Part shown: one piece after another, positions 6,111 to 19,868 of the stretch
How positions within the stretch are numbered: the first letter of the stretch is position 1
Layout: every line of letters begins with the position of its first letter
Assembly: GCA_938036315.1 (NCBI GenBank)
Contig: CALHPK010000026.1
Span: 1 to 20,207, forward strand
DNA: 20,207 bases
DNA from: an uncultured bacterium
GTDB taxonomy: Bacteria; Calescibacteriota; Calescibacteriia; Calescibacteriales; Calescibacteriaceae
Direction: 5' to 3'
Notes under the pieces: generated by a model
The model's database searches: none
What the model saw: only the letters and a program-made list of their open reading frames with translations
Told to the model about the DNA's origin: nothing
Translations under genes and position numbers: made by a program

Positions 6111-6845
6111 TCAATCAGAAAGCAGTCTTGAAACTCTAATTGCCTCTTTGATCTCTTCAATCGCCTTTTGGAGTCCTAAAAATATAGATCTTGAAATTAT
6201 TGAGTGCCCTATTGAAAATTCACTTATGTAATGGATCTTTGCAACCATCTGGATGTTATGCACTGACAAAGCATGCCCAGCCATAACATATAGCTTATTT
6301 TCCACTGCGTACTTTGATGCCTGAGCAATTTTATGCAGGATATCTAAATTCATTTTCATAGCATACTCAGTAGTGTTCAGCTCTACAAAATCTGCTCCTA
6401 CATCTAACACCTTATCTATAACTTCTTTCTCTGGTTCTACAAAAAGCCCCGAGAAAATACCATGTTCCCTCAATTTCCCAACGAATCTTTTGACCTGCTC
6501 AAACTCAGACTTATCTTTAAGATCGAATCCCCTTTCTGTAGTAACCTCCCTTACCCTCTCAGGAACAAGCGTCACTTTGTCAGGTTTGACATCAATAGCA
6601 AATTCCAGAATATCATCAAAAAGTCCCATCTCAAGAGTTAAAGGGATATTTACTACCTCCTTTATGAGCTTGACATCTTTTTCTTTTATATGACGTCTGT
6701 CTTTTCTCAGGTGAACCGTCACACCATCCGCCCCGGCGATTTTCACGACAACCGCAGCATGAACAGGATCAGGCTCTCTACCCCCTCTTGCCTCCCTCAA
6801 TGTGGCAACATGATCTACATTAACTGATAATTTGGCAGTAGGCAT
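6111..6845 (-). CDS. pdxJ: Pyridoxine 5'-phosphate synthase
   Basis: Condenses 1-deoxyxylulose 5-phosphate with 3-amino-2-oxopropyl phosphate to pyridoxine 5'-phosphate, the last ring-forming step of the DXP-dependent vitamin B6 route. Seen: VNVDHVATLREARGG near the N-terminus, HLRKDRRHI, LEMG, and the phosphate-binding SIGHSIISR near the C-terminus. The frame extends to a TTG at 6863, but I chose ATG 6845: from there Asn9, Asp11, His12, His45 and Glu72 fall at the same positions as in the E. coli enzyme. Neither start has a Shine-Dalgarno sequence. Length 244. It is first in the leftward unit with the aldehyde dehydrogenase and atpDC, and divergent from the secreted-protein gene across about 120 bp. 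A PLP-requiring enzyme (gcvPA) lies elsewhere in the window. Confidence 0.96.
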   Translation of the reverse strand: MPTAKLSVNVDHVATLREARGGREPDPVHAAVVVKIAGADGVTVHLRKDRRHIKEKDVKLIKEVVNIPLTLEMGLFDDILEFAIDVKPDKVTLVPERVREVTTERGFDLKDKSEFEQVKRFVGKLREHGIFSGLFVEPEKEVIDKVLDVGADFVELNTTEYAMKMNLDILHKIAQASKYAVENKLYVMAGHALSVHNIQMVAKIHYISEFSIGHSIISRSIFLGLQKAIEEIKEAIRVSRLLSD

Positions 6846-6965
6846 ATTAGTAAAGTTTTTCAAAAGATATTCAATTTTGTGGAAAAGCTAAAAAAAAGTG
6901 ATTATATTGTACCTGGTAATAATTTATTGATTTTAAGATAAAGAAAAACGGGGGTGATAATAGCT

Positions 6966-8864
6966 ATGACGGGGATAGCAAGAGCAAAGAGCTACTTTTT
7001 TTTAGGGATAGTTTTATTATTTTCACTATCCTGCGCAGGTAGCGAACGGCAGAGTAAAATAAAACTTCCAGAAAAAAATCTTATAGCGGTCTCTGTTTAT
7101 GGTGAAAGAGAATTTGCGGATTATAGGGTATACTTTAGGGGATGGGAGGCAGACACACCTCAAGCAATATTTCTTACTGATCAAGAAAAGAAAATCACAT
7201 ACGGATATGCTTATGTTCTTCCCAAGGAACTTGTAGATGACATATGGGGAAAAGACGCCGCAGTACTTTATCATTTCACACCACAGCTGGATGGCTACAT
7301 AAATATTGATGAGAAAACTACCGCCCTCTTTTTAGTTATTATGTCCCCTCCATACTTTTGGATGTTCACTCCCAAAGCTTTAGTTCTGACAGCCGGACAT
7401 ATAATTCAACACCCAGATTTTCCTAAATTGTACGGAGAAATAGCCAAGGTTGAACCTGGAGAACTTCTAAGCGAAAAAAGTCTCAAGATTTTTGCACTTG
7501 CATCAAAAATAGCTGAAGATGTAAGAGAAAGTCTTCTTCCAGCAAGGGCTACTCCGCGATTACATCAATCAGATGAAAATCAATGTGGGAATGCACAGAT
7601 AGCCAGAGTCGAAGATCTCCCAGGTCTTGCTTTTAATTTTGTTGCAAAAAATATGGTCTTCTATGGCGGAGCGGTTTTCAATAGCGATGACCCAGGAAAG
7701 TACCAGGATATAAATAAATTTTTCACATTAAAGGCTCAAAACGGAAAGGTGGATCTATCCCTAAGCGGTATACTGAGCTTTAATATAATAGATCCGGCCG
7801 TAAAAACCACGGTATCAGTACCGACAGATGGAAGACATGCAGTAAGACTTGAAAAAGGTGTAGAACTTAATTTATCTATATTTACTGATCCAGTAAAAAG
7901 AATAGGACTTGTAGCCAATTTTGGCAGAACTGTCAAATATGTAATAGAAATAGCAGTCCCAAATATTGCAGTCTGCATTCCAGATGGAGATACATGGGGG
8001 GCTGTCGTAGCAACAGCTCAAAATCTTCTCACTACAGGAGAACTGAGCAGTATAAAGGATATTTTTGTGTCCGGATGGGATGAAATCCTCAGAATAGTAG
8101 TTACCCAATTTATGGATCAGAACTCATGGATATACAGGGTTATGAACAAGATTGGTTTTGCAAGTTGCTCATACGATGGGAACTTTATAGTAAATCAAAT
8201 CGCGTCAATGATAAGATGGTTCCCGCTTGCAAAACTTTATGATGCTTTCACAAAATACATCCCGTTCGGTATAGAACTCTTCAAAAAACCAAGAACTGGA
8301 CTTTACCTTGTCTGGAACGGGGCACCACTTTTTGCTGATGAAGTTATGATATACAGCGTATACCCTGACAAAGCTTCATCACCCGGGCAGATTTCGGTCG
8401 TAACTCTGGGAGGAGCTGGATGTACATCTTCTGATAGCATCTGCTTCCTAAGATTATATTGCCCATCTTACGGTACAACAGAATTTTACGATACCTTCAA
8501 CTGCGGGGACAGAAAAGTAATCCAAATCCCTCCAAACTTTTATGGGGATTGTACCCTTATGTCCATCGCTAAAAAGAAAAAACAGCAGGGCTTTGGGATA
8601 AATCTGGGATTTTTCAAAATAGGGAATACATACTCGGAGTGGGTCGAATATATAGTATCTAACGTTTCAATTCCTATTCAGAAATGTACTTCCTCCTGCG
8701 GAGAATTTTATGACCTGCTACAAGGAGGAGGTAAGCCTCCCCAGCAAGAAGGTGGAGGATGTTCTACAGCCCAACCTCACAGTGTATATCATATCTTCGC
8801 TATCTTTATCATATTCTTGCTACGTAAAGTAAGAATAAGAAACGAAAGACTGCAAACTGACTGA
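6966..8864 (+). CDS. Secreted or lipoprotein-like protein with Cys-containing C-terminal anchor, function unknown
   Basis: I recognise no catalytic family. The 632-residue product begins with a signal peptide: basic ARAK, a hydrophobic core FFLGIVLLFSLS, then Cys23-Ala-Gly. SLSC is a loose lipobox (Ser at -3), so either lipid attachment at Cys23 or ordinary signal-peptidase cleavage is possible. A stretch near 121-134 is hydrophobic and aromatic. Residues 486-578 hold seven cysteines, suggesting a disulfide-bonded extracytoplasmic domain. The C-terminus is tripartite: GGGKPPQQEGGGCS (Cys599), about 15 hydrophobic residues (VYHIFAIFIIFLL), then basic RKVRIRNER. That layout resembles sorting tails such as MYXO-CTERM and JDVT-CTERM. 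Start: GGGGGTG lies 9 nt before ATG 6966; a GTG at 6954 is in frame but falls inside that SD. No neighbour suggests a role. Confidence 0.75.
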   Translation: MTGIARAKSYFFLGIVLLFSLSCAGSERQSKIKLPEKNLIAVSVYGEREFADYRVYFRGWEADTPQAIFLTDQEKKITYGYAYVLPKELVDDIWGKDAAVLYHFTPQLDGYINIDEKTTALFLVIMSPPYFWMFTPKALVLTAGHIIQHPDFPKLYGEIAKVEPGELLSEKSLKIFALASKIAEDVRESLLPARATPRLHQSDENQCGNAQIARVEDLPGLAFNFVAKNMVFYGGAVFNSDDPGKYQDINKFFTLKAQNGKVDLSLSGILSFNIIDPAVKTTVSVPTDGRHAVRLEKGVELNLSIFTDPVKRIGLVANFGRTVKYVIEIAVPNIAVCIPDGDTWGAVVATAQNLLTTGELSSIKDIFVSGWDEILRIVVTQFMDQNSWIYRVMNKIGFASCSYDGNFIVNQIASMIRWFPLAKLYDAFTKYIPFGIELFKKPRTGLYLVWNGAPLFADEVMIYSVYPDKASSPGQISVVTLGGAGCTSSDSICFLRLYCPSYGTTEFYDTFNCGDRKVIQIPPNFYGDCTLMSIAKKKKQQGFGINLGFFKIGNTYSEWVEYIVSNVSIPIQKCTSSCGEFYDLLQGGGKPPQQEGGGCSTAQPHSVYHIFAIFIIFLLRKVRIRNERLQTD

Positions 8865-19281: not shown

Positions 19282-19578
19282 TTATGCCAATATCTTCTTT
19301 GCTAATTCTTTCTTCTCTTCCGGGGTTTCTGCAAGTATAAGTAATGCAAGCAAATTCATACTCTCTTTCTGTGCTCTCAAAATCCTCTCTGAATTCTCAC
19401 TCGAAACCTTCACAGAATACTCTATCGCTTTAAGTATTCTCTCTGAACTTTGCTCCATAGCTTTAAGTATCTTCTCTGTATTTTCCCTTGTAATCTTACC
19501 ATTCCTCCATGCAAGATATGTTATAACTCCCGCAAGTATTGTCACCGCTACTCCCATTATCCCCACTGCTATCTCCAT
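19282..19578 (-). CDS. Small membrane-anchored coiled-coil protein, function unknown
   Basis: 98 residues and no family I can name. The N-terminus (about 3-24, VGIMGVAVTILAGVITYLAW) is one membrane helix without a cleavage site. A charged helical part follows in which [ST]E[KR]IL[KR]A recurs three times (34-40, 45-51, 63-69), spaced 11 and 18 residues, compatible with a coiled coil mixing hendecads and heptads. The end is SMNLLALLILAE then PEEKKELAKKILA. Start: GGGGGTG lies 6 nt before ATG, the same SD variant as the secreted-protein gene. It begins within the last bases of the transposase remnant (10-bp overlap), so it may have been captured by or transcribed from that element. tRNA-Ala lies 83 bp downstream on the same strand. 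Confidence 0.7.
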   Translation of the reverse strand: MEIAVGIMGVAVTILAGVITYLAWRNGKITRENTEKILKAMEQSSERILKAIEYSVKVSSENSERILRAQKESMNLLALLILAETPEEKKELAKKILA

Positions 19579-19868
19579 CTTCTACACCCCCTTATAAATT
19601 TTAATTTGGTTAAATATAAAAACAGAAATTCCTTAAGGTATAACAATAAATTCTTTCTAAATGTTCTGTGGAATTTTACCTTCTTTTCCTTCACCCAATT
19701 CCAAAAATTTTCTATCCCATTTATGTGAACCACCCCTCTTTTATATTCTCCTTTGTTATGCTCAACTACCCTGTGGATATATCCATTATATATCAATCTT
19801 TTGTATGATTTGAACTCATCCGTTATTACTATACTTCCCCTCTCCACCAGCAGATTTACCTTAATCAT
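19569..19868 (-). pseudogene. IS1595 (ISXO2-like) transposase, C-terminal remnant
   Basis: Resembles the end of the DDE domain of IS1595-family transposases. VITDEFKSYKRL carries the second catalytic Asp, YIHRVVEHNKGEY and VHINGIENFWNWVKEK carry the last His/Glu part, and FHRTFRKNLLLYLKEFLF matches the usual W..v..KHL..Y..EF.FR tail. Only about 99 residues remain of an expected 200-300. An in-frame TAA directly precedes the ATG, and the zinc-ribbon N-terminus and first catalytic Asp are missing. I found no terminal inverted repeats or target duplication nearby. The 180 bp between it and ligA are AT-rich and hold no gene I can support. Non-functional for transposition as it stands. Confidence 0.8.

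Follow-up and report, generated by a model that had tools for sequence, protein, structure and literature searches.

A recurring Cys-containing tail and a matching membrane protease in Calescibacterota point to a relative of the myxobacterial surface-sorting system

What becomes of an exported protein that carries a lipobox-like Cys at its N-terminus and, at its C-terminus, a Gly-rich linker, a second Cys, a short hydrophobic span and a basic cluster? The question was raised by a gene in a 20,207-nucleotide stretch of DNA from an uncultured bacterium of the family Calescibacteriaceae (assembly GCA_938036315.1, contig CALHPK010000026.1), referred to here as the window. A first-pass annotation had proposed a Cys-type sorting tail similar to MYXO-CTERM and JDVT-CTERM. 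This proposal is supported by two observations: exported proteins of unrelated families share the tail, which is lineage-specific at the threshold used, and it coexists with a Mrt-type CPBP protease in five genomes. A recurring tail together with a matching membrane protease suggests that this phylum of hot-spring bacteria has a so far unrecorded system related to myxobacterial surface sorting.

The window protein and its family

Features of the gene and its product are listed in Table 1. The start at 6966 was favored over a GTG at 6954 because an opening MTG is common to most homologs, ORF 6966-8864 included. Pfam and NCBIfam searches assigned no family to the window protein, and a laccase match of 15 bits was discarded as noise. 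The AlphaFold model was weak overall (pLDDT 52.6, mostly low confidence); its better parts were a fair beta-rich C-terminal region and a C-terminal helix (residues 607-631). A PDB fold search returned generic beta-sandwich matches (Ig/Fn3/PKD/C2-like), none of them at E<=0.001.

Family members were collected by full-length search, blind to the tail. A paralog with 53% identity was found in the same genome and homologs in four others, giving seven members in five genomes of one taxonomic family. The N-terminal signal sequence of the window protein ends in LLFSLSC23-A-G, and the Cys-Ala-Gly described earlier is confirmed, with Cys23 at a lipobox-like site and invariant in all seven members. The seven-Cys region (Cys 486, 493, 499, 513, 529, 574 and 578) is also present, with every Cys except C578 invariant in the family. 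The tail opens with GGGKPPQQE, continues with GGGC599-STAQPHSVYHIFAIFIIFLLRKVRIRNERLQTD and ends in LQTD; its linker, Cys599, span and basic cluster are as first described, and the GGC-TM-basic arrangement is kept in 7/7 members. Thus, the invariant Cys, TM and basic end of Cys-type tails are all found. Homologs lacking the Cys or the basic tail, which would have spoken for a plain membrane helix, did not appear among the seven members, since C23, G597, G598 and C599 are invariant in all of them; other tail-bearing proteins exist as well.

Table 1. Features of the window (positions on its forward strand) and related loci in the five genomes
Feature	Location	Strand	Basis
Gene for exported protein, 632 aa, ATG start	6966..8864	+	ORF translation; start backed by MTG kept in homologs
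N-terminal signal sequence, residues 1-22	6966..7031	+	hydrophobic stretch in all homologs; by eye
Cys23, putative lipobox Cys	7032..7034	+	alignment; kept by all seven members
Protein body, no Pfam family, structure without confident prediction	7035..8294	+	Pfam search, AlphaFold
C-terminal beta-rich stalk, residues 444-578, housing seven-Cys region 486-578	8295..8699	+	alignment, AlphaFold, fold search
Gly-rich linker preceding tail Cys	8724..8759	+	sequence
Cys599, invariant tail Cys, presumed lipidation and cleavage point	8760..8762	+	alignment
Short hydrophobic span of sorting tail, residues 607-619	8784..8822	+	sequence; AlphaFold helix 607-631
Basic cytoplasmic end RKVRIRNER, residues 620-628	8823..8849	+	sequence
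Lipoprotein-like gene copies	L060:7910-9589, L061:7952-9670, L062:7913-9631, L063:7916-9736		
RCC1/MopE tail carriers	window's genome, C1, C6, C25		
Big_13 tail carrier	window's genome, C9:40 kb		
Contig-truncated tail carrier	window's genome, C31		
HYDIN-Ig carrier, internal tail, then second signal sequence and OmpA domain	window's genome, C3:51 kb		
2134-aa tail carrier	window's genome, C1		generic-rule scan
Subtilase tail carrier with GGCGC	window's genome, C9:194 kb		generic-rule scan
Internal-tail loci	G000:C3:49.0-52.7 kb (L098:2990-6667; OmpA domain follows); L125; L128; L136		

Several neighboring features were observed. In the window (6111-6863) and in three relatives (L061-L063), the upstream neighbor of the gene is a divergently oriented pdxJ. 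Downstream of the homolog in four genomes is a lipoprotein-like gene (DFSTGLANRD...), which is absent from this place in the window; a Pfam search of the L061 copy found no match, and the gene is a possible partner. In addition, a short ORF at 19569-19868 of the window looks, by eye, like a C-terminal fragment of a transposase.

Recurrence of the tail on unrelated proteins

A profile of the tail was built from seven tails and then from 16. It matched all five genomes of the family and, at E<=1e-3, none of 93 genomes outside it, which are related to the window's genome at the domain level only. The profile and the generic-rule scan described below recovered about ten carriers in the window's genome, the window protein and its paralog counted, and these belong to several unrelated families. 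Overall, the tail is borne by exported proteins as different as RCC1/MopE, FG-GAP/PPC, PKD, subtilase, Ig-like and HYDIN-Ig+OmpA proteins, and its recurrence on otherwise unrelated exported proteins holds within a single genome.

Some of the profile E-values are circular because the matches concerned were training data; carriers on C1, C6 and C9, the subtilases and several proteins in the relatives were outside the training set, some of them being paralogs or orthologs of trained ones. We also applied a generic rule independent of the profile (signal sequence, single C-terminal TM and basic end) to a sample of 400-420 kb. All four proteins of more than 300 aa that fit this rule in the scan (about 420 kb) have GGC before the span, and two small exported proteins have C-terminal spans without Cys. 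The motif upstream of the tail Cys varies (GGGC, FGC, YGC, VGC and GCGC, with one carrier lacking Gly), and therefore some weak carriers may be false.

Several weak profile matches were rejected as short frames or multi-pass membrane proteins. A two-sequence profile recovered the two paralogs only, plus noise. Three matches to the pattern GGC[S..]xA, in wrong frames or inside ORFs, were put down to chance; one of these (G000:C1:69.6k) sits within a true tail protein whose tail is elsewhere.

In four families (C3:51 kb; G001:C29 and G003:C2; G001:C56; G001:C35), the tail is internal, lying in mid-protein with a second signal sequence shortly after it.

A candidate protease and relation to known sorting systems

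Of the two enzyme types proposed for the search, a glutamic-type protease was found in the window's genome and a rhombosortase was not. The window's genome encodes one Rce1-like CPBP protein over the Pfam cut-off (209 aa, G000:C6:54.9 kb). Myxosortase models account for all of its best NCBIfam matches, Mrt_core (NF040914) leading at 87 bits; the four other genomes encode orthologs with scores of 93-99 bits, for which MrtP is the best model. One strong Mrt_core match was found in each of the five genomes, at 88-99 bits (87-97 bits in the NCBIfam comparisons), and the window's genome encodes a Mrt-type CPBP glutamic protease, though under the curated cut-off of 100. Mrt_core scores over 98 genomes fall into two groups (at least 68 bits or at most 45 bits), Calescibacterota being in the upper one. 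Residues E118/E119, H160, H196 and N200 are invariant in the five Mrt-like proteases; E, H, H and N are what we take to be the catalytic set of CPBP proteases, after MmRce1. The protease gene does not adjoin any tail substrate gene. One clear rhomboid was present in each of the five genomes; that of the window's genome is GlpG-like, scoring 18.1 bits with the rhombosortase model (TIGR03902) against a cut-off of 84. A GspD secretin over cut-off was also found in the window's genome, in line with the model for M. xanthus, which includes a T2SS step (PMC11980579).

Nine outside genomes (G018, G024, G032, G039, G044, G048, G053, G094 and G095) had Mrt_core matches over cut-off and no match to the tail profile; tails of other families may be present in them.

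None of the curated NCBIfam CTERM models recognized the tails. MYXO-CTERM (TIGR03901) did not match the window tail or the other tails at E<=10 (E<=1 in one later run). Synerg-CTERM (TIGR04564) and Heimdall-CTERM (NF045529) did not match the window tail, whereas RCC1-type tails gave sub-threshold matches (best 21.2 bits, cut-off 24). The tails are not members of these three families as curated.

The action of a myxosortase was first shown experimentally in 2025, in myxobacteria (PMC11980579). Similar to the MYXO-CTERM/MrtX system of Myxococcota, that of Calescibacterota combines a Cys-TM-basic tail, many unrelated carriers, a Mrt-type CPBP protease and T2SS. Both systems include a GCGC variant, and both have an internal tail in a protein that ends with an OmpA domain: MXAN_5598 of M. 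xanthus, which has an OM barrel and OmpA after an internal MYXO-CTERM (PMC11980579), resembles the C3:51 kb protein. However, the Calescibacterota tails tested lack a MYXO-CTERM match, the phylum is different, the protease is under the MrtX cut-off, and about half of the carriers have a putative N-terminal lipobox. The 35 MYXO-CTERM proteins of M. xanthus have signal peptides, and the MYXO-CTERM tail is without a lipobox (PMC11980579); we found no statement on N-terminal lipidation of carriers in that paper. Synerg-CTERM and Heimdall-CTERM share the sub-threshold similarity to RCC1-type tails but occur in other taxa, and the scores are below their cut-offs. JDVT-CTERM/MrtJ has the invariant Cys and a related protease in common with our system; however, JDVT-CTERM consists of two paired genes and has a single substrate (PMC11980579), whereas the Calescibacterota substrates are many and dispersed, and the MrtJ score is below cut-off. 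GlyGly-CTERM has a Gly-rich tripartite tail and T2SS, yet it lacks a conserved Cys, and the window's genome has no rhombosortase. By architecture, recurrence and protease branch, the Calescibacterota system is of the general Cys-type CTERM kind and would work like the myxosortase system. The best reading is that it represents a phylum-specific variant of this kind.

Proposed processing and alternatives

The window protein is likely displayed on the surface of a diderm bacterium of the Calescibacterota, as one of the substrates of a sorting system of the myxosortase type; we infer its cleavage, lipidation and surface location. After Sec export, Cys23 would be lipidated by Lgt and the protein cut by LspA, as the lipobox suggests, and the C-terminal span would serve as an inner-membrane anchor. 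By analogy with MYXO-CTERM, Cys599 would be modified, probably by lipidation, and the Mrt-like protease encoded on C6 would then cut distal to it.

An alternative explanation is that the tail is a plain, uncut transmembrane anchor, with Gly-Cys a by-product of disulfide-rich or lineage-shared sequence. A hydrophobic span and a basic end would be enough to hold the protein in a membrane, and the two small exported proteins of the generic scan end in such spans without Cys. However, in proteins of unrelated families Gly-Cys precedes the span at one and the same position; it is kept in every member of the window family and missing from 93 other genomes, and a protease of the expected type accompanies it in 5/5 genomes, making a plain anchor improbable. 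Processing of the tail by another enzyme, such as a rhomboid protease as in GlyGly-CTERM, would agree with the rhomboid found in each genome and with the Gly-rich linker; we consider it very improbable, as the rhomboid of the window's genome is closer to GlpG models and it is Mrt substrates that are distinguished by an invariant Cys (PMC11980579).

A further alternative concerns only the Cys23 step and is compatible with the rest: the window protein could be a Mrt substrate with an ordinary signal peptide or no N-terminal lipid, and hence one anchor. Its lipobox is not ideal, with Ser at -3, and carriers of other families (C9, HYDIN-OmpA and G001:C56) have ordinary signal peptides. On the other hand, Cys23 is invariant, with G/A/S at -1 in 7/7 members; a PS51257-like pattern fits six of the seven, and clear lipoboxes are seen in homologs (LASC, ITAC and IVGC) as well as in unrelated tail carriers. 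A single anchor appears rather unlikely, although less so than the two alternatives above.

The first-pass annotation had regarded a lipobox and a sorting tail on one protein as unusual, a view contradicted by their recurrence on several unrelated families in Calescibacterota. The N-terminus is intact in 25 carriers from the five genomes; by eye, 13 of these have a Cys with G/A/S at -1 directly after the hydrophobic stretch, and therefore lipid signals at both ends recur across families (the window family, RCC1 proteins, an FG-GAP protein, a PKD protein and G001:C35). Most of the remaining carriers have ordinary signal peptides, and two are ambiguous. In the window's own genome, a lipobox was seen by eye in 4/8 carriers versus about 4/26 of the background, a sample too small and too related for a claim of enrichment. 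It is conceivable, and we suggest it tentatively, that the myxosortase system of Calescibacterota is a distinct one. Many of its substrates would then bear lipid at either end, on a diacylglyceryl Cys at the N-terminus and on a modified Cys at the C-terminus, and form loops or bridges at the surface, and some of its tails would be parts of polyproteins, immediately ahead of a second signal peptide.

Proteins with two lipid signals raise the question of how a single substrate is shared between Lgt, LspA and Mrt. With a lone Mrt-type protease and some ten substrates in 1.9 Mb of sequence, this small genome of a thermophile allows a narrower search for the lipidating enzyme of the myxosortase system, and its proteins, likely thermostable, are suited to structural work. 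Finally, we observed a broken RCC1-type tail protein in one relative (G004:C20:32.2 kb; L031/L090), a remnant in which stop codons lie ahead of a hydrophobic span that has survived.
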